The notes beneath the pieces were generated by a model. It did not search any database. It was not told where the DNA came from and saw only the letters and a list, made by a program, of their open reading frames with translations. A DNA stretch of 64,000 bases, taken from positions 186,001-250,000 of the forward strand of contig JAGHYV010000001.1 of assembly GCA_017743475.1 (NCBI GenBank), written 5' to 3'. A program made the translations under genes and the position numbers. This document shows, in pieces, positions 29,776 to 40,799 of this stretch (position 1 is its first letter; every line of letters begins with the position of its first letter). Origin of the DNA: Roseiflexus sp. GTDB lineage: Bacteria; Chloroflexota; Chloroflexia; Chloroflexales; Roseiflexaceae.

Positions 29776-31863
29776 CTATCTCCGCACCAGATCCGTCGCC
29801 ACGGGAAGGGTGAAGTAGAAGGTGCTACCCTTGTTGAGTTTACTCTCTGCCCAGATGCGACCGCCATGCAGTTCCACCAGGGCTTTGGCAATCGAAAGAC
29901 CAAGACCGGTGCCGCCGATGCGGCGCGTATTGCCGTTGTCAACGCGGTAGAAGCGCTCCCAAATGCGCGGCAGGTCCTCCGGAGCGATACCAATTCCCTG
30001 GTCGCTTACCGCAATGCGCACAAACTTCCCGCGTGGGTGGTCGGGCGGGAGTTCAACGTTATCGGAGATTGAGAGGCGGATTTCGCCACCATTTGGTGAG
30101 TACTTGACTGCATTCGTGATCAGATTCACCAACACCTGCCGGACCTTGTCGCGATCAGCATAGACGGGCGGCAGATGCGGCGGAATGTCGATCAGCATCG
30201 TGTGTTTGCCGCTGATCTGATTGTTGAGTTGCGCTGTCAGGTCGCTCACAATCTGGCGCAGTGACACTGCCCACTGATTGAGGCGCACATTCCCGGCTTC
30301 CAGCCGCGTCACCCCAAGCAAGTCTTCAACGATCTGATAGAGATGGTTCGCTTCATTGTATACGGTCTGCACAAATTCGCGCCGTTCAGCAGGACTGAAC
30401 TCACGCGCCAGCAGCAATTCGGTGTATCCCATGATCGAGGTTAGTGGCGTGCGCAGTTCGTGCGAGATGATTGAGAGGAACTCACTCTTCAGGCGATCGG
30501 CTTCGCGTTCGCGCGTCACATCGCTGACGATCCACAATCGACCAGTCAGCGAACCGAAGCTATCGCGCGTTGGCACCGAGAGGAGCATTAACTCCTGATG
30601 CGGGCTGGTCAACTGTACCAGCAACGATTGCACTTCAGTCGGGGCGCGTTGACCTTCGGCGCACATTCTGGTCAGCGTAAGCGGGTCGCGCAGCCGCGGC
30701 AGCAACAGTGGCACCAGATCAAGCGGCACGTAGAACGGATCGCGTATTGATCCGGGCGGCAACCCCCAGATCGTCAGCCATGCCGAGTTGTGGCGCAGCA
30801 CGCGCCCCTGCTGATCCATCAACGCCAGCCCGCTGGGAATGCTGGAGAAGACCTGACCCAGGTGCGTGCTGGTTTCGAGCAACTGCTGATAGTGCAGCGC
30901 GCGACGGAGCGGATTGACGGCCAGGTCGCACAACGCCTTGACGAACGCCACTTCGCTCTCGCCGAACGCGGTTGAGCGCGGGCTATCGAGGATCAGCACC
31001 GCAAGCGGTTGATCGGTGCCGATTGGCATTGCCAGTTCCGCGCGCACTTCAGGATTGAGTGCCTGATAATCCGGATCGTGGGAAACATCACGCAGGAGGA
31101 TCGCGCGCCCGGTGCGCGCGACCTTTCCCGCAACGCCAACGCTCCAGTTCCAGCGACGCCGCGTTTCACCGAAAGCGTCGCGGCTGAGTGGGTTGGCGCC
31201 GTACCCTTCGTATGCCTGAAGCGTCACTTCACCGCGCTCATGGTCAACTACACCGATGGCGCCAGCTTCGGCGCCAGTTGCATCGAGCGCCCAGCGCAAC
31301 AGGAAGGTCAAGAGTTCACCCAGGTCGAGCGGCGCTTCAAGTTCAGCGCGCAGAGCATCGAGTACACGCTGCTGGCGCATCGTTAGGATTGGCGCATCAA
31401 CATTTGCGCCGCTGCTGGACGCGATCGCAGCTGCCATGAGCGGCGTCAGCGCATCGATCAGCGCCTGTTCCTCGTCGCCGATGACCATCTGATGGTCGCC
31501 GCGCAGTTCCAGCACCCCCCATAGACGCCGGTTCCAGATGATCGGCGCGCCATAGTGAAGCGCCGGGTTATCGGCAGCATCCACAACACGACGACAGGGG
31601 GCGCCACAGGCAATAACCTCGTGCAACAGATCATCGTGCCACGGGAGACTCCAGCCGTTCGGCGCATACCACTGATCGCCGGTTGACACCGTGATCGGTT
31701 CATGCTGCCACCAGGTCACACGTCCATCGTGAAAGCGAATGACAGTGCGCAGCAGTTCAAATACACCGGGCAATCGCATCTCAAGCGCCTGATCGCTGGC
31801 GAGCAGGCGTGAAGCGTGCAGAATGATTGGAAGCGTCGCCGATGTGGAAGAGAGCGCGTACAT
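29776..31863 (-). CDS. Soluble hybrid sensor histidine kinase (GAF-GAF-PAS-HisKA-HATPase)
   Basis: 695 residues with no membrane segments. A first GAF-like domain (about 1-150) is followed by a second GAF domain (TGAEAGAIGVVDHERGEVTL) and a PAS domain (FSSIPSGLALMDQQGRVLRH). The dimerisation/phosphoacceptor site is FLSIISHELRTPLTSIMGYT. The ATPase domain has the N box NLITNAVKYSPNGG, G1 VSDQGIGIAPEDL and G2 GGTGLGLSIAKALVELHGG. It autophosphorylates on His in response to a cytoplasmic cue and passes phosphate to an Asp on a response regulator, which is not encoded next to it. Confidence 0.9.
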   Translation of the reverse strand: MYALSSTSATLPIILHASRLLASDQALEMRLPGVFELLRTVIRFHDGRVTWWQHEPITVSTGDQWYAPNGWSLPWHDDLLHEVIACGAPCRRVVDAADNPALHYGAPIIWNRRLWGVLELRGDHQMVIGDEEQALIDALTPLMAAAIASSSGANVDAPILTMRQQRVLDALRAELEAPLDLGELLTFLLRWALDATGAEAGAIGVVDHERGEVTLQAYEGYGANPLSRDAFGETRRRWNWSVGVAGKVARTGRAILLRDVSHDPDYQALNPEVRAELAMPIGTDQPLAVLILDSPRSTAFGESEVAFVKALCDLAVNPLRRALHYQQLLETSTHLGQVFSSIPSGLALMDQQGRVLRHNSAWLTIWGLPPGSIRDPFYVPLDLVPLLLPRLRDPLTLTRMCAEGQRAPTEVQSLLVQLTSPHQELMLLSVPTRDSFGSLTGRLWIVSDVTREREADRLKSEFLSIISHELRTPLTSIMGYTELLLAREFSPAERREFVQTVYNEANHLYQIVEDLLGVTRLEAGNVRLNQWAVSLRQIVSDLTAQLNNQISGKHTMLIDIPPHLPPVYADRDKVRQVLVNLITNAVKYSPNGGEIRLSISDNVELPPDHPRGKFVRIAVSDQGIGIAPEDLPRIWERFYRVDNGNTRRIGGTGLGLSIAKALVELHGGRIWAESKLNKGSTFYFTLPVATDLVRR

Positions 31864-32297: not shown

Positions 32298-34259
32298 ATG
32301 AAGATTCTCGACAGGAAAATCGCGCTCATTCTCATGCTCGCGCTGGTTGTGCCAATCATAGCAGCCTGTGGCACCCCTGCGGCGCAACAACCGATCCGCG
32401 AGACGGTAGTTGTGACCGCAGAACCTATTAGGGAGACAGTCGTCGTGCGCGAGACAGTCGTGGTTGAGGGCCCGACCGCTGCTCCGTCAGGGGCTTTCAC
32501 CACACCGCACCCGATCCTCAGCGATGTGCGGGTGCGCCAGGCAATTGCGTACTGCACCAACCGCCCCGAGTTGATCCAGTCGGTTTACAGTTACCTGACG
32601 CCAGAGCAGCAGCAAGCGTTGCTGATGGATACCAACCTGCCGAAGACGCACTGGGCGGCTGCCAGTGAAGCAGACGGCATTGTGGTCTATCCGTTCGATC
32701 CGGAAAAGGGCAAGGCGCTGCTCGAAGAGGCGGGCTGGAAACTGCCCGAAGGTCAGCGTGTGCGCGCGAAGGATGGGGTGCCGCTGGCGCTCGAGTTCAC
32801 CACTACCAATGCGCAGTTCCGCATCACCTGGGCAACTGTGCTGGAGAAGCAACTGCTCGATAACTGCGGCATCCAGATCATCCGCAAACATGCGCCGGGT
32901 TCCTGGTGGTTCGGTAGCGCCTCCGGTCTGCGTCGGCGCGACTTTGAACTTGGCGCATTCGCCTGGGTTGGTGAAGCCGATCCCCGTGGTCGCGACCTGT
33001 ATGCCTGTGACCAGATTCCGCTGCCGGACAACAATTGGGAAGGCCAGAACTATATGGGCTGGTGCAACGAGACCGCCAGCAAGGCGATCGTCGCAGCCAA
33101 CAATACGCTGAACCGTGAGGAGCGCATTAAGCACTACAAGACATTCCAGGTCGAGTTCACTAAGGACATGGTCAGCCTGCCGCTGTTCCAGCGCCTCGAA
33201 GCGTATGCCTGGAACAAGGCGTTGAGGGGTCTCAAGCCCGACCCGACCGAGTATATCACCGCGAATGCGTATCAGTGGGAGCGCGCCGATGGCGGCGACA
33301 CCATTATCCTGGGCTTCACTCAGGAGCCAGCTTCGATGTTCACGCTGGTCGAGAGCGCGGCAGTGCAGCGCCAGGCGGCGCAACTGGTCGGGGGTGTGCT
33401 GACGACCCAGTATAGCTACGACTTCCAGCCGGTGCTGCAGGATGGTCTCTCGACGATCGAGGCTGGCAAGGCAAAGAATGAGGTCGTCGAAGTCAAAGAA
33501 GGTGATAAGGTCTGGGACGCGACGGGCGCTGCTGTTGAACTCAAGCCGGGCGTCGAGATTGTCAACGCTGACGGCGAGACGATCAAGTACGAGGGCGGCA
33601 CGGTCAAGATGAAGCAATTGACCGTCACCTATGATCTGATCAAGGGCATCAAGTGGTCGGACGGTGAACCGCTAAAGAAGGCTGACCTTGAACTGAGTGT
33701 CAAGATCGCGTGCGATCCTGAGTCGGGCAATGTGAGCCTCACTTTCTGCCAGTCGCACGATAATCTTAATGGTGTTACCTTTAACAGCGACACCAGCTAC
33801 ACCATCAAGTTCCTGCCGGGCGTGCAGTGGCCAATTTACTTCACCGCTCTCTACGGCGGCTACCCCTCGCATGTGACCGTTTCGGACGGGCGGAAACTGG
33901 CGGATGTGCCGGCGAAAGAGTGGGCAACTCTACCGGAAGTCGCCGAAATTCCGCTGGGGTACGGACCATACATTCTGAAGGAGTGGAAGAAGGGCGAGTT
34001 CATGAAGTTCGAGGCGAACCCGAACTTCGTGCTCGGCGCGCCGAAGGTCAAGAATGTCATCATCCAGTTCTACGCCGACACCAATGCGGCAGTAGCAGCG
34101 CTGCTGACCGGTGAGGTCGACATTCTTGAGAAGGCGACGCTCGGCGCCGGTCCGGAGGTGGAAACGGTGCTCAAGGCGGCGGCAGAGGGCAAGATCGAAG
34201 CCAAGACCGACGCCAGCCCGACCTGGGAGCACATGGATATGAACCTGTTCATCCGGTAA
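32298..34259 (+). CDS. ABC transporter solute-binding lipoprotein, family 5, circularly permuted
   Basis: 653 residues. A lipoprotein signal (ALILMLALVVPIIAAC, Cys24) is followed by a short linker with three RETVVV repeats. The order of the mature domain is inverted. Residues ~70-330 (HPILSDVRVRQAIAYCTNRP, YPFDPEKGKALLEEAGW, NCGIQIIRKH, then FQVEFTKDMVSLPLFQRLEA) correspond to the C-terminal half of OppA/DppA-type proteins. Residues ~332-653 (DTIILGFTQEPASMF, GIKWSDGEPLKKADLELSVK, IPLGYGPYILKEWKKGE, PKVKNVIIQFYADTNAAVAA, ending HMDMNLFIR) correspond to the N-terminal half. In the canonical protein MNLFIR leads directly into HPILSDVRVRQAIAY. Nothing is missing, so the fold could close. It starts after AGAAAGGAG and heads the operon for peptide-type uptake. 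Confidence 0.85.
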   Translation: MKILDRKIALILMLALVVPIIAACGTPAAQQPIRETVVVTAEPIRETVVVRETVVVEGPTAAPSGAFTTPHPILSDVRVRQAIAYCTNRPELIQSVYSYLTPEQQQALLMDTNLPKTHWAAASEADGIVVYPFDPEKGKALLEEAGWKLPEGQRVRAKDGVPLALEFTTTNAQFRITWATVLEKQLLDNCGIQIIRKHAPGSWWFGSASGLRRRDFELGAFAWVGEADPRGRDLYACDQIPLPDNNWEGQNYMGWCNETASKAIVAANNTLNREERIKHYKTFQVEFTKDMVSLPLFQRLEAYAWNKALRGLKPDPTEYITANAYQWERADGGDTIILGFTQEPASMFTLVESAAVQRQAAQLVGGVLTTQYSYDFQPVLQDGLSTIEAGKAKNEVVEVKEGDKVWDATGAAVELKPGVEIVNADGETIKYEGGTVKMKQLTVTYDLIKGIKWSDGEPLKKADLELSVKIACDPESGNVSLTFCQSHDNLNGVTFNSDTSYTIKFLPGVQWPIYFTALYGGYPSHVTVSDGRKLADVPAKEWATLPEVAEIPLGYGPYILKEWKKGEFMKFEANPNFVLGAPKVKNVIIQFYADTNAAVAALLTGEVDILEKATLGAGPEVETVLKAAAEGKIEAKTDASPTWEHMDMNLFIR

Positions 34260-34361: not shown

Positions 34362-35564
34362 ATGACGACGTATCTGATCCGCCGCCTGATCCAAATGGTT
34401 GTTGTGACCATTCTTTCGGCAATGCTCGGCTATTCGTTGCTGTACCTTGCGCCAGGCGGGCCGTTGTTGTTTTTGCAGCAGATGCAGAATACCGGGCAGC
34501 GCCGGGTGACCGAAGAAGATATTGCGCGCCTGAAAGCTCGCTATGAACTTGATCTCTATCTCCCCATCCGCTTTACTCGCTGGTTGATCGGCTTCCCTGC
34601 CGGTCCTGTACAGATCGGCGGGATGAATCTGATCTCGCCGGACACAGTCGTCGGGTGTGCGATCCCCGGTCAGGTGCGCCTGCGCTACCCCGATGGCACG
34701 GTTGAGATCATCGAGGAAGGGTGCGTCCGGGTGGTAACACTGGCGAATCTGGCGGAGCGCCGCACGAGTCGTGGCATTCTGTTCGGCGATTTTGGGCTAT
34801 CGCAACAGATTGCGCGTGATCGTCCGGTTAGCGATCTGCTGATGAGTCGCCTGCCGTATACGCTGCAGTTGATGGGTGTTTCGACATTGCTGGCAATTCT
34901 GATCGGTGTGCCGGTGGGCATCTATTCGGCAGTGCATCAGTACTCACGCTTCGACTATGCGATGACTGGCATTACCTTCGTCGGGTCGTCGCTGCCGACG
35001 CTGTTTATGGGGGTTATGGCGATCCTGGTCTTCTCGGTGCTGGCGAAGGAAGCCGGGTTGCCCTACCTGCCGTCGGGCGGTGCACAGGGTATTCGCAACT
35101 ACGATGTTCCATGGATCGGGACGGTGCAGGCCGGTTCGGCGCTTGATCGCACCTTGCGCTTCATTATGCCGTGTGCGGTGTTGACGTTCTTCAATATCGC
35201 AGGGTGGAGCCGCTTCATTCGTGCCAGTATGCTCGAAGTGCTGCGGCAGGATTATGTGCGCACAGCACGCGCGAAAGGCGTGCGCGAGCGGGCAGTGATT
35301 ACCAAGCACGCGCTACGCAATGCGTTGATCCCGTTCGTGACCCTACTCGCAGGGGTGCTGCCAACGCTGGTTGCTGGCGCAGCCATTACCGAATCGGTGT
35401 TCAACTGGCCCGGTATGGGGCGGTTACTGGTCGATGCGCTTGGACGCAGCGATTACACAGTGGCGATGGCGATCCTGTTTATCAGTACCGTTCTGGTGTT
35501 GATTGGGTATCTCATTTCCGACATCCTGTATACAATTGTCGATCCGCGCATCCGGCTCACGTGA
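34362..35564 (+). CDS. Peptide/nickel-type ABC transporter permease (OppB/DppB family)
   Basis: 400 residues. The TM1 start TYLIRRLIQMVVVTILSAML with LLYLAPGGPLLF is characteristic of DppB/OppB. A periplasmic insertion (about residues 80-150, including PGQVRLRYPDGTVEIIEEG) makes it about 60 residues longer than usual. The BPD_transp_1 core contains the EAA loop EVLRQDYVRTARAKGVRERA and HALRNALIPFVTLLAGVLP. It forms the inner-membrane channel with the next gene product and accepts substrate from the permuted binding protein. Confidence 0.93.
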   Translation: MTTYLIRRLIQMVVVTILSAMLGYSLLYLAPGGPLLFLQQMQNTGQRRVTEEDIARLKARYELDLYLPIRFTRWLIGFPAGPVQIGGMNLISPDTVVGCAIPGQVRLRYPDGTVEIIEEGCVRVVTLANLAERRTSRGILFGDFGLSQQIARDRPVSDLLMSRLPYTLQLMGVSTLLAILIGVPVGIYSAVHQYSRFDYAMTGITFVGSSLPTLFMGVMAILVFSVLAKEAGLPYLPSGGAQGIRNYDVPWIGTVQAGSALDRTLRFIMPCAVLTFFNIAGWSRFIRASMLEVLRQDYVRTARAKGVRERAVITKHALRNALIPFVTLLAGVLPTLVAGAAITESVFNWPGMGRLLVDALGRSDYTVAMAILFISTVLVLIGYLISDILYTIVDPRIRLT

Positions 35565-35579
35565 GGAGCAGAACGTACA

Positions 35580-36584
35580 ATGGCCACGACAACATCGGCG
35601 CCCGCAGCGTCTGGCGCTCTTGACAGGTTGCAAACGCGCTCTGAAGGGCAGTGGGTGGTTGTTTTCCGCCGATTTCGTCGGCACCGCCTGGCAATGGTCA
35701 GTCTTGCGATCTTGATCCTGATCTTTACCGCTTCGATCCTGGCGCCCTGGATTGCCCCCTTCCCGCGTGACGAAATCGGCCTGAACCGTACCCGCCTCCC
35801 GCCAATGAGCGTTGATCCGGTCACGGGTCAACTCCATATTCTTGGCACCGACCACCTGGGGCGCGATTTCTTCACTCGCGTGATCTATGCGGCTCGGGTG
35901 TCGCTGATGGTGGCGATTTCAGTAACGATGCTGGTGGCGATCATCGGTACAACCCTCGGCTTGCTGGCAGGGTTCTTCGGCAGTTGGGTCGATAATACCA
36001 TCAGCCGTATTATGGAGTTTGTCGCAACGATCCCTGACCTGCCGATCCTGCTGATCCTTAGTGCGATCATGATTCAGAATGCCGACCTGATCGTTCTACC
36101 GTCCTGGATCATCGGTCCGATCGCCTGGATCATGGCGGCTCCCAACCGCGAGGCAACCCAGGTGGCGTTACTGATCCTGGTGCTCGCATCGCTCGGTTGG
36201 GTCGGTGTGGCGCGTTTGATGCGCGGGATGGTGCTTCAGGTGCGCGAAATGCAGTATATCGAGTCGGCACGCGCACTCGGCGGATCGAATATGTGGATTC
36301 TGCTCAAGCATGTCTTTCCGAACGCCTTCCCACCTCTGATCGTGGCATTTACGCTCGGTCTCAACGGCGCACTGGTGAGCGAGGTAGCGATCAGTTTCCT
36401 CGGTTTCGGCGTGCAGGACCCGACACCAACGTGGGGGAATATGATGGGGTTTGCAACCAGTTATATGTTCAACCATCCGTGGATGCCGCTCATCCCTGGT
36501 CTGCCGATCTTTCTCTGTTCGCTGGCGTTCAACTTTATTGGTGATGGATTGCGCGACGCTCTCGATCCGCGCTTGAAACTGTAA
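35580..36584 (+). CDS. Peptide/nickel-type ABC transporter permease (OppC/DppC family)
   Basis: 334 residues starting 15 bp after the previous stop. The OppC N-terminal domain (VVVFRRFRRHRLAMVSLAIL) is followed by FILGTDHLGRDFFTRVIYAA-type sequence (HILGTDHLGRDFFTRVIYAA), and the EAA loop MQYIESARALGGSNMWILLK precedes FPNAFPPLIVAFTLGLNGAL. An additional hydrophobic loop around residues 160-190 (PSWIIGPIAWIMAAPN) is longer than average. It partners the OppB-like protein. Confidence 0.93.
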   Translation: MATTTSAPAASGALDRLQTRSEGQWVVVFRRFRRHRLAMVSLAILILIFTASILAPWIAPFPRDEIGLNRTRLPPMSVDPVTGQLHILGTDHLGRDFFTRVIYAARVSLMVAISVTMLVAIIGTTLGLLAGFFGSWVDNTISRIMEFVATIPDLPILLILSAIMIQNADLIVLPSWIIGPIAWIMAAPNREATQVALLILVLASLGWVGVARLMRGMVLQVREMQYIESARALGGSNMWILLKHVFPNAFPPLIVAFTLGLNGALVSEVAISFLGFGVQDPTPTWGNMMGFATSYMFNHPWMPLIPGLPIFLCSLAFNFIGDGLRDALDPRLKL

Positions 36585-36601: not shown

Positions 36602-37630
36602 GTGACGACTTCATCTGTTCCTGCACCGGCAGCAACTCTGCGCAAAAAATCTGCAAACGGCGACGTTCTCCTCGAAGTGCGAGGGTTGAAAACCTACTTC
36701 TTTACCGAAGCTGGTGTAGTGCGCGCAGTTGATGGAATTGACCTGACAGTACGCCGTGGCGAGGCGCTTGGCATCGTCGGGGAAAGCGGTTGTGGCAAAA
36801 GTGTCACGTCGCTCTCGATCTTGCGTCTGATCCAGGACCCGCCAGGGAAGATTGTCGAAGGGCAGATTATCTTCGACGGCACTGATATCCTCGCGCTGAG
36901 TGAAGAGGATATGCGCCATATCCGTGGCAACCGCATCTCAATGATCTTTCAGCAACCCACCACCTGCCTCAATCCGGTCTTCAAGGTGGGGGATCAACTT
37001 ATCGAGGCGCTGGAGATCCACCAGGGATTGCGGGGCGAAGAGGCACGTCGGCGTGCTATCGAACTCTTCTCGCTAGTGGGGCTGCCTGACCCGGAACGGC
37101 GCATCAACCAGTATCCGCATGAACTGTCCGGCGGGCAGGCACAACGGGTAATGATTGCGATAGCGCTGGCGTGCAACCCGGAACTGCTGATCGCCGATGA
37201 GCCGACGACGGCACTCGATGTGACGATCCAGGCACAGATCCTCGATCTAATGCGTGAACTGCGCGAGAAGATCAATACCTCAATTATTCTGATCACCCAC
37301 GATATGGGAGTGGTCGCCGAAATGGTGGATTCGGTCGCCGTGATGTATGCCGGGCAGGTGGTTGAATATGCCAATGTGTATAGCATTTTCGCCGAACCGA
37401 AACATCCCTATACCCAAGGATTACTGGCGTCAATCCCGGTGTTGGGTGAGATCGTCGATGAACTGGTGACAATTCCCGGAACTGTACCGAGCCTGATCAA
37501 TCCGCCTACCGGATGCCGCTTCGCTGACCGCTGCACCAGACGGTTCGCGCGCTGCGATGAACCGCCACCGATGTTCAACCTGGAAGATGGGCGGCAGGTG
37601 CGGTGCTGGCTGTATACTCCCGATGCTTGA
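36602..37630 (+). CDS. ABC transporter ATPase, OppD/DppD family (first pair)
   Basis: 342 residues with a GTG start. Walker A is [11 protein letters not shown], the Q-loop [12 protein letters not shown], the signature [15 protein letters not shown], Walker [15 protein letters not shown] and the H-switch LITHDMGVV. The C-terminal oligopeptide extension ([20 protein letters not shown]) holds the four cysteines that bind an iron-sulfur cluster in this family. It hydrolyses ATP together with the OppF-like protein encoded next. Confidence 0.93.
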
Positions 37631-37657
37631 ACTTCCTGATCAATCAATGGATGTTCT

Positions 37658-38665
37658 ATGACAATGGCAGGGCAACGCAGTGTGTCGAACGATACGCTGC
37701 TAGAAGTCAATAATCTGGTCAAGTATTTCCCGATCAAAGGTGGTATTCTGCGCCGTACTGTCGCAGTCGTCAAGGCTGTCGACGGCGTCAGTTTCACCCT
37801 CAAACGCGGCGAAACCCTGGGTCTGGTCGGCGAGAGCGGGTGCGGCAAAACCACGACTGGACGCACGATCCTGCGGCTGGAGAAGGCAACCAGTGGTGAA
37901 GTGATCTTCGATGGCAAGGATGTGCTTGCTGCCTCCGGCAGTCAGTTGAAGGCTCTGCGCCGCGATATGCAGATCGTCTTCCAGGACCCGTATGCTTCCC
38001 TTGATCCGCGGATGACGATCGGCGAGAGTGTGGCGGAAGGGTTGACGATCCACGGAATCGGTAGCAAAGCCGAGCGTATCGAGCGTGTGCGTGAGGTGCT
38101 GTCGAAGGTCGGCCTGCATCCCAGCCATATGGAACGTTTTCCGCACGAATTTTCCGGCGGTCAGCGCCAGCGGATTGGGATTGCACGTGCACTGGTGATG
38201 AATCCAAAACTAATCGTGTGTGATGAACCGGTGTCGGCGCTCGATGTGTCGATCCAGGCGCAGGTGCTCAACCTGTTGCGCAATTTGCAGCAGGAGTTCG
38301 GTCTCACCTACCTCTTCATCGCGCACAATCTCAGCGTTGTTGAGCATATCAGCAATCGGGTCGGTGTGATGTACCTGGGGAAGATGGTCGAACTGGCGGA
38401 GCGGATGGAACTCTTTCGCCATCCGCTCCATCCGTACACCAAGGCGCTGATTTCCGCCATTCCGATCCCAAACCCTGCCATCCGGCGTGAGCGGATCATT
38501 CTTCAGGGGGATGTACCAAGTCCGATCAACCCGCCAAAGGGGTGCCGCTTTCATCCACGCTGCTGGATGGCGCGCGACATATGTCGCGAAGTTGAACCGG
38601 TATTTGAGGAAAAAGCGCCCGGTCACTGGTCAGCCTGCCATTTTGCATATGAGGTTTCACCATAA
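37658..38665 (+). CDS. ABC transporter ATPase, OppF/DppF family (first pair)
   Basis: 335 residues. The start [20 protein letters not shown] is typical of OppF. Walker A is [11 protein letters not shown], the Q-loop [12 protein letters not shown], the signature [15 protein letters not shown], Walker [15 protein letters not shown] and the H-switch FIAHNLSVV. The Cys-rich C-terminus is [20 protein letters not shown]. It starts 27 bp after the OppD-like gene and forms the heterodimeric motor with it. Confidence 0.93.
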
Positions 38666-38677
38666 AGGAGAGTGACT

Positions 38678-39697
38678 ATGTCGCAACCGCTGCTCGTCGT
38701 TAAGAACCTCGAGACTCATTTCAAGACCCAGGACGGGATTGTTAAAGCTGTCAATAATGTTTCGTTCCACGTCGATCGCGGTGAAACTCTCGGCATTGTC
38801 GGCGAGAGCGGTTCGGGGAAGAGCGTCACGTCCCTCTCCATTATGCGCCTTATTCCCAATCCGCCAGGCAAGATCGTCGGCGGGCAGATCATCTTTGACG
38901 GCCACAACCTGCTCGATTACACTGAAGAAGAAATGCGCCACATTCGCGGTAACCGGATTGCCATGATTTTTCAGGACCCAATGACCTCGCTCAATCCGGT
39001 ATTGACCATTGGGCGCCAGATCACCGAATCGCTTGAACTGCATATGAAACTATCGCCTAAAGAGGCGCGCAACCGGGCAATCGAACTTTTACAGATGGTC
39101 GGTATTCCGGGTGCTGCGCGGCGTATCGATGATTATCCGCATCAGTTCTCTGGCGGGATGCGTCAGCGCGTGATGATCGCAATGGCGCTGTCGTGCAACC
39201 CGGAGTTGCTGATCGCCGATGAGCCGACAACCGCGCTTGATGTGACGATCCAGGCGCAGATCCTTGAACTTATCCAGCGGTTGCAGCACGAACTCGGCAC
39301 AGCAGTGATCATCATCACCCATGACCTTGGCGTCGTTGCCGGGATGGCAGACCGGGTGATTGTGATGTATGCCGGTCGGGTGGTGGAGGAAGGACCTACC
39401 GAGGAGATCTTTGCCCGTCCCCGCATGCCGTATACGATTGGTTTGCTGCGTTCAATTCCGCGCCTCGATGCGGAAGAAGGGCGAACGTTGACCCCTATTC
39501 GCGGGTTGCCGCCCGACCTGATCAACCTGCCGCAGATCTGCCCCTTCAGTCCGCGCTGCGACTATTTCATCCCTGGCGCATGCGATCAGCAGGTTCCGCC
39601 GTTGCGCGAGGTGGTCCCAGGTCATAAGGCTGCCTGTCTGTTCGATATTACGCTCGAAACACCGCTTCCCACAACCAGTGGCCAGGTGCCAGTATAG
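38678..39697 (+). CDS. ABC transporter ATPase, OppD/DppD family (second pair)
   Basis: 339 residues from the ATG at 38678, 7 nt after AAAGGAG; the GTG two codons upstream is too close to that site. Walker A is [11 protein letters not shown], the signature [15 protein letters not shown], Walker [15 protein letters not shown] and the H-switch [11 protein letters not shown]. The C-terminal cysteines are in [19 protein letters not shown]. It is clearly paralogous to the gene at 36602 but more canonical at the Q-loop ([12 protein letters not shown] against [12 protein letters not shown]). Confidence 0.93.
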
Positions 39698-39731
39698 CGA
39701 TGCGATAATAAGCAGGTAGAGGGTGGGAGAT

Positions 39732-40799
39732 ATGAGCGCCACGTCGACCGATCTGATCCAGGTGCGGAACCTGAAAATGTACTTCCCTGTAACGAAGGGA
39801 ACAATTATCAAACGTACTGTTGGCTATGTCAAAGCCGTCGATGGTGTAACATTCTCAATCAGGCGGGGCGAGACACTGGGGCTGGTGGGAGAGAGCGGGT
39901 GCGGAAAATCCACTACTGGTCGCGCCATTCTGCAGCTCTACAGGCCAACTGCTGGCGAGGTGCTGTTCCAGGGAACCGATCTGACCCGCCTGCACGGGGA
40001 AGAGTTACGCCGGATGCGACGCAAGGTGCAGATGATCTTTCAGGATCCGTATGCGTCGCTTAATCCACGCATGACGGTGGGAGACATTATTGGTGAGCCG
40101 ATTGCAGTCCATAATCTGCGTCAGGGGAAGGCAGCTATCCGTGAGCGTGTGCAGGAACTGCTTGAACTTGTCGGTCTTAACCCCTACTTTATCAATCGCT
40201 ATCCCCACGAGTTCTCTGGCGGTCAGCGTCAGCGCATTGGCATTGCACGTGCACTCGCGGTCGAACCGGAGTTTGTTGTGTGTGATGAGCCGGTTTCGGC
40301 GCTCGACGTCTCGATCCAGGCGCAGGTGCTCAATCTGCTCGAAGACCTGCAACATCGCCTTGGGTTGACCTACCTATTCATTGCGCACGGTCTGGCAGTC
40401 GTCAGGCATATCAGCGACCGCGTGGCAGTGATGTATCTAGGGAAGGTAGTTGAACTGGCGGAGGGAAAGAAACTCTACTCCATGCCGATGCACCCCTACA
40501 CTCAGGCGCTCCTGTCAGCAGCGCCGATTCCTGATCCAACTATCGAGCGCAAACGGCAACGCATCATCCTGGAGGGTGACGTGCCTAGTCCATTCAATCC
40601 ACCGCCGGGTTGCCATTTCCATACCCGCTGCCCGATCGCCATCGAACGCTGCAAAGTCGAAGAGCCGCCCTTCCGGGATTATGGCGACGGGCATTTCGTC
40701 GCCTGCTGGCGCGCGCCTGAGTCGATCGAGTTGATGGAGCGGTACGCAGCACGCCCGAACAATGGCGCGCGCTCCATTGCGCCGCAGGCAGGCGCATAA
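39732..40799 (+). CDS. ABC transporter ATPase, OppF/DppF family (second pair)
   Basis: 355 residues from the ATG at 39732 (SD AGAGGG 8 nt upstream; GTG at 39723 possible). [20 protein letters not shown] is the OppF opening. Walker A is [11 protein letters not shown], the signature [15 protein letters not shown], Walker [15 protein letters not shown] and the H-switch FIAHGLAVV. The C-terminal Cys motif is [20 protein letters not shown]. It is the last gene of the operon. Confidence 0.93.

Follow-up and report, generated by a model that had tools for sequence, protein, structure and literature searches.

A family 5 solute-binding lipoprotein of Roseiflexus and its relatives with swapped halves, very probably circularly permuted at the hinge between the lobes

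The question raised by a gene at positions 32298-34259 (+ strand) of a 64,000-nucleotide stretch of Roseiflexus sp. DNA, hereafter the window, is whether a solute-binding protein (SBP) of the SBP_bac_5 family can be encoded with its two halves in exchanged order, and what such an exchange would imply for the importer encoded beside it. A preliminary description based on the letters alone had claimed that the product is a circularly permuted SBP family 5 lipoprotein within an otherwise ordinary oligopeptide ABC operon, and that no permuted member of this family is known to have been described. The permutation itself is backed by profile matches, by a predicted structure and by over 60 co-linear orthologues, and we consider it highly probable, taking the best explanation as a whole, that the gene encodes a lipid-anchored SBP_bac_5 solute-binding protein circularly permuted at the hinge between its lobes.

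Layout of the gene and order of its halves

The open reading frame is read through 653 codons from an ATG at 32298 and ends in HMDMNLFIR, followed by a stop codon at 34257-34259, a position that corresponds to the inter-lobe hinge. These landmarks, together with the frame, the lipobox and the RETVVV repeats, had been given correctly in the preliminary description, as re-reading confirmed. All features of the gene lie on the + strand. The signal peptide (32298-32369) carries a lipobox (...IIAAC24) with the lipid-bearing Cys24, recognized from the sequence and conserved in orthologues, and is followed by a Val/Thr/Glu-rich linker with RETVVV repeats (residues 25-66; 32370-32495) that varies in length among orthologues. 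The half that is canonically C-terminal (residues 67-330; 32496-33287) now comes first; it comprises lobe II/domain III together with the canonical C-terminal segment, and HPILSDVRVRQAIAYCTNRP lies at residues 71-90, after the linker. The canonical N-terminal half, or lobe I (residues 331-653; 33288-34256), now comes last and includes DTIILGFTQEPASMF at residues 334-348.

The identification rests on the reading frame and on profile, PDB-sequence and de-permuted searches. The Pfam profile SBP_bac_5 (PF00496) matches the protein in two separate stretches (156.5 bits against a gathering cut-off of 32.4; E 1e-45), and these are swapped relative to the canonical half order; a profile alignment in canonical order, which would have refuted the permutation, was thus not obtained. 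Across the NCBIfam and PDB sequence searches, query residues ~67-328 align with the C-terminal half of the family's proteins and residues ~439-651 with the N-terminal half. Residues 72-327, for example, correspond to the C-terminal part of Opp4A (312-554 of 556), and in PDB entry 2d5w (T. thermophilus) query residues 74-309 align with chain positions 322-560 and residues 552-651 with positions 206-311, that is, in reversed order. No NCBIfam equivalog cut-off was reached (Opp4A, NikA, SapA, DppA), the best score being that of Opp4A (123.8 against 650).

Every canonical relative that is matched in two pieces shows them in swapped order, and this includes the closest canonical paralogue of the same genome (C56:90964-92853). 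When the query is de-permuted (residues 331-653 followed by 67-330), this paralogue is matched in a single piece at 213.6 bits, versus two pieces of 151.6 and 55.8 bits with the native query. Canonical relatives across the phylum are then aligned as a single collinear stretch (32-34% identity, E values to 1e-72), and the permutants' own matches are split into two. Judged by sequence comparison, the swapped order is far beyond chance. The general criteria for circular permutation are met in that homologues exist in both orders, both halves are complete and the termini are adjacent, the adjacency resting on a model. Since local profile matches ignore order, such a permutant passes for an ordinary family 5 SBP in Pfam-type annotation.

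Predicted fold, hinge and cysteine pairs

The mature protein was modelled with AlphaFold2 from an input that included orthologues and half-length fragments of canonical relatives, and a canonical relative (L035), encoded by a sister family in the syntenic operon, served as control. The permutant is predicted as one confident monomeric fold (mean pLDDT 95.5, pTM 0.90; control 91.2 and 0.84), and the two models share one list of secondary structure elements, circularly shifted against each other. For comparison with the PDB we used Foldseek, whose alignments follow the order of the sequence. Among the best 50 matches the permutant aligns with solved SBPs over 221-322 columns, along only half of their length, with target-normalised TM values of at most 0.41 (except for one 256-residue domain fragment) and E values reaching 8e-13, whereas the control aligns along the full length over 566-612 columns (TM up to 0.86, E 1e-43). 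A half-length match of the permutant combined with a full-length match of the control is the signature expected of a permutation. Failure of the halves to form a single two-lobed fold, which had been named as a second means of refutation, is not what the confident single prediction suggests; the two-lobed packing is itself predicted, resting on pTM and secondary structure without an order-independent superposition or an experimental structure.

In the cluster C structure EppA the hinge consists of two antiparallel strands (PMC7312458), and in AliD lobe 1 (residues 29-296 and 583-617) is arranged around lobe 2 (residues 297-582; PMC11192437). In the models the cut of the permutation coincides with the loop after the first hinge strand. 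This strand (TWEHMDMNL, residues 634-648; 34197-34241) corresponds to E282-297 of the control and to E569-583 of the permutant model, where it now enters the C-terminus. The second hinge strand (residues 293-305; 33174-33212) was assigned by comparing model strand E228-240 with the control and with the published hinge (PMC7312458). The canonical N- and C-termini, lying side by side in lobe I, would be joined through a short turn; the joint, placed at 33276-33308 from the model and from orthologue spacing, leads within ~4-6 residues from the canonical C-terminus (W327) to the canonical N-terminus (DTIILGF). The new start and stop of the chain would lie where canonical proteins pass from lobe I to lobe II. 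It is inferred that both hinge strands are retained, with the second as the one remaining covalent link between the lobes, and that the lipid tether has moved from the start of lobe I to the lobe II side of the hinge. Compared with cluster C SBPs such as OppA, DppA, NikA, AppA and 2d5w, both halves are homologous and the gene likewise stands first in a Dpp/Opp-type operon, but the chain is rotated so that its N-terminus lies at the start of lobe II and its C-terminus at the end of hinge strand 1.

AliC, a cluster C SBP that crystallised as a dimer swapped through the hinge loop between lobe I and lobe II, shows that the fold survives a rearrangement of the connection between the lobes (PMC11192437). 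The same crystal form leaves room for a reading in which the hinge cut permits exchange of lobes, yielding a domain-swapped or loosely hinged dimer that acts as a sensor or scavenger and not as a monomeric receptor, and orphan permutants without an ABC operon, one of them with an extra C-terminal region, could be viewed in this light. We regard this as very unlikely, as the monomeric model is confident, the members of the main line stand first in importer operons, and the authors of the AliC study report no evidence for a functional swap (PMC11192437). Three disulfides are inferred from cysteine pairs that co-vary among orthologues: 86/190 and 237/256 are each present as both or neither in 66 of 66 rows, and 472/484 with one exception. 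Each pair is confined to one half and none therefore bridges the cut, so that a cysteine staple across the cut was rejected. The idea that C472/C484 is specific to permutants was also rejected on wider sampling, as two canonical proteins (L196 and L263) have both residues.

Distribution and origin of the permuted order

The search for homologues with the same half order, which the preliminary description had recommended, recovered a clade that is old and conserved rather than a local peculiarity. Permutants are found in 24 of 40 relatives, at 45 loci of GTDB contigs and in 43 of the 400 genomes drawn from the phylum, with co-linear orthologues sharing 50-95% identity. An alignment of 40 permutants contains ~100 invariant columns. 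In nearly all members the mature domain starts with (T)TPHPIL.D and the chain stops only a few residues from the MNLF-R/K strand. Of 65 orthologues measured, 62 have a spacing of 17-18 residues across the joint, counted from W327, the final conserved Trp in the canonical C-terminus, to QEP in the canonical N-terminus. No relatives were detected on viral contigs. The 496 plasmid records, all below 60% identity, include no clear permutant; their best-ranked matches (~22-29%) are mostly in two pieces, that is, canonical-looking.

An assembly artefact, an inversion error or a pseudogene would have to be considered for a source genome that is a draft of 206 contigs, the more so as two homologues are frameshifted. 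Such explanations are refuted by dozens of independent co-linear orthologues, among them members in single-contig genomes (G002, G147, G163, G044 and G359) and on the chromosome CP059258.1, and the open frames, conserved ends and invariant columns also speak against them, so that we accord them virtually no credence. As to the frameshifted homologues themselves, the break lies inside the N-half in one (L120:8303-10343, in the single-contig genome G264) and at the joint of the halves in the other (L121:4550-6749, in G288), and each may be a sequencing error or a real break.

In SBP trees the permuted proteins form one clade (SH-aLRT 100), and the tree therefore requires only one permutation event. 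The deepest split within this clade separates two solo paralogues (L117 and L118) from the operon line. One ancient origin suffices, older than the dispersal of the permutants through Chloroflexia and Anaerolineae, whether that came about by descent, by transfer or by a combination of the two; the canonical parent group is left unresolved by the SBP trees. In the tree of permB, the permease gene that follows the SBP gene, the sequences from permutant operons form one clade (support 99) that is sister to those from canonical-SBP operons, and the pair is set apart from other permeases with support of 100.

The order could have arisen by tandem duplication, in-frame fusion and subsequent loss of the outer halves. 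This is the standard route and is inferred to fit the data; no duplicated intermediates (~1100 aa) were present among the open reading frames seen. A fission-fusion origin, in which halves from two SBP paralogues or separated half-genes were fused in a new order, finds some footing in the operons of this lineage, where two canonical SBPs frequently occur in tandem or in flanking positions, in the higher identity to canonical relatives in the C-half (35-37%) than in the N-half (25-28%), and in the existence of a descendant that retains only the C-half (L119). Separate trees of the halves gave no support for a chimera of two paralogues, however, as CP, SBP1 and SBP2 each form one clade and neither half falls firmly within a different canonical family; the confinement of all three cysteine pairs to single halves likewise counts against it, and we judge this origin unlikely.

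Several loci depart from the common arrangement. At L127:6035-8500 (G232) a permuted SBP is fused to a C-terminal region of ~150 aa without a Pfam match, and at L119:7431-8675 (G002) only the canonical C-half and the last strand are present, again fused to a C-terminal region of ~150 aa without a Pfam match; no ABC operon genes were detected in the fetched stretch of either locus, and both products are possibly repurposed surface proteins. The divergent solo permutant at L117:6387-8330 (G004) lacks an evident lipobox Cys; its locus lies at a contig end and showed no importer operon alongside. A second divergent solo permutant, L118:7412-9310 (G389), also has no importer operon seen alongside and is encoded directly upstream of a 958 aa protein (within L118:7412-12477) that combines an N-terminal phosphonate-binding domain with an SBP_bac_5 domain in canonical order. 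Permutants without an adjacent ABC operon (L117, L118 and L127) may indicate that part of the family does something else. One further permutant operon (L083) is on a contig binned as Candidatus Gracilibacteria; its permease groups among Oscillochloridaceae, and the contig is probably misbinned.

Operon, permease segment and related systems

In the window the permuted SBP gene is followed on the same strand by permB, encoding a DppB/OppB-like permease of 400 aa (34362-35564; BPD_transp_1 and BPD_transp_1_N, NCBIfam Opp/Dpp permeases), and permC, encoding an OppC/DppC-like permease (35580-36584; OppC_N and BPD_transp_1, Opp4C best). Four ATPase genes assigned by NCBIfam come next, in the order OppD/DppD-like 1 (36602-37630), OppF/DppF-like 1 (37658-38665), OppD/DppD-like 2 (38672-39697) and OppF/DppF-like 2 (39723-40799). 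Two consecutive OppD/OppF-type pairs within one operon (36602-40799) are also encountered in a single-contig genome of the same genus (G002, L122). A divergent gene for a histidine kinase (29776-31863, - strand; GAF/PAS-like by eye) adjoins the operon, is conserved in Roseiflexus relatives and is a possible regulator.

The presence of Dpp/Opp permeases and ATPases meets the expectation for an SBP_bac_5 operon. The order SBP-permB-permC-ATPase-ATPase is conserved across Chloroflexia and Anaerolineae, and of the loci whose flank is long enough nearly all have permB, permC and OppD- and OppF-like ATPases downstream of the permutant. Two sister families of the same taxonomic order (f3 and f2) have these genes in identical sequence, but a canonical SBP takes the first slot and a second canonical SBP follows the ATPases; relative to the permutant operon they share 42-46% identity in permB, ~40% in permC and 72-79% in the ATPases. 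Their canonical SBPs (L035, L039 and L040) occupy the same slot and are 29-31% identical to the permutant after de-permutation, and differ in the order of the chain and in the permB beside them, whose loop is ~40 aa shorter and lacks two cysteines.

The permuted SBP would act as an ordinary Venus-flytrap receptor that captures a solute between the lobes and delivers it to the importer formed by permB, permC and the ATPases of its own operon. Import by this mechanism is most likely its role, inferred from family, anchor and operon in the absence of binding data. As to the ligand, in AliD an Asp at W+3, counted from the pocket Trp (W498/D501), binds the amine of the peptide (PMC11192437). The corresponding position 226, as tallied in 36 permutants, is Q in 21, E in 11, D in 2 and S in 1; with Q or E in its place, the Asp that marks the peptide-specific OppA/DppA/AliD type is lacking and a peptide ligand is not assured.

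The description of the operon as otherwise ordinary does not hold, as permB carries an extra extracytoplasmic segment (residues ~78-135; 34593-34766) that contains Cys99 and Cys121 and recurs in every one of the permutant operons examined. Measured from the W-L motif after TM1 to the GDFG.S motif, the loop is 68-80 aa long with exactly two cysteines in all 66 distinct permB sequences from permutant operons, versus ~34-38 aa without Cys in syntenic canonical operons and ~16 in ordinary DppB homologues. The TM1-TM2 extracytoplasmic region is ~40 aa longer than in canonical-SBP operons. In 35 genomes without a permutant the listed permB matches begin downstream of the segment, with two exceptions: a distant homologue whose insertion is unrelated (G050/L234), and a match of 41% that is slightly longer. 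Apparent loops near 79-84 in four non-permutant permB sequences were rejected as faults of the pattern anchors, the alignments showing no such segment. The segment and the permutation fall on one stem branch, so that their co-occurrence is a single observation and not a repeated correlation.

The lengthened region includes the scoop from TM1 to alpha3 that in E. coli DppB binds the cleft of DppA (PMC12136057), and it may contact the rearranged receptor, a docking role being inferred. We tentatively propose, as an idea somewhat unlikely to hold, that receptor and permease co-evolved, such that a tether at the hinge and a freed hinge strand led to a different mode of docking or release, served by the Cys-bearing segment. 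It is quite possible, if short of an even chance, that the permutation is instead a purely neutral relic, with docking and dynamics unchanged and the permB segment unrelated. The fold is predicted to be unchanged and Pfam still recognises the family, and the same permease region has insertions in unrelated canonical-SBP systems (ECD1/ECD2 of AmiC; PMC11192437); set against this, long conservation without reversion, the hinge tether and the segment in every permutant operon examined suggest a matched pair, without proving it. The pneumococcal Ami system offers a partial parallel, in that the OppB-type subunit AmiC has an enlarged extracytoplasmic region modelled as touching the SBP and AliC shows the hinge-loop swap of lobes, but its SBPs are canonical, the two AmiC domains are far larger and homology has not been shown (PMC11192437).

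Circular permutation occurs only rarely in natural ligand-binding proteins, and the sole described SBP case found belongs to cluster B. This is MglB-2 (Tp0684) of Treponema pallidum, for which the designations "Type Ic" and "Cluster Bc" were proposed and which has relatives in spirochaetes and Gram-positives (PMC4990184). It resembles the Chloroflexota proteins as a clade-wide natural permutation in a tethered lipoprotein that keeps the two-lobed fold, which for the Chloroflexota proteins is a prediction, and its authors suggested that permutation and anchoring are linked (PMC4990184). MglB-2 is a sugar-binding protein with a break within the N-lobe sheet and an added fourth hinge crossing (PMC4990184), whereas the Chloroflexota permutant belongs to cluster C (SBP_bac_5), is broken at the hinge between lobe I and lobe II and by inference has one covalent crossing removed; the features that define the MglB-2 type (cluster B fold, N-lobe break, fourth crossing) are not met by a PF00496 protein broken at the hinge. 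The statement that no permuted member has been described stands for SBP_bac_5, for which no report was found in the open-access PMC literature (subscription papers and the AlphaFold DB being outside the scope), and does not stand for SBPs in general. The protein is apparently a second natural case, independent of MglB-2, in the peptide/opine/nickel family.

A permutant that is conserved over two classes and has canonical sister operons represents a natural experiment on the importance of chain order, tether position and hinge covalency for Venus-flytrap receptors and their docking, and its new hinge termini make it a natural scaffold for the design of biosensors. If the proposed co-evolution of receptor and permease were true, this clade would use a distinct receptor-translocator interface within the type I ABC importers.
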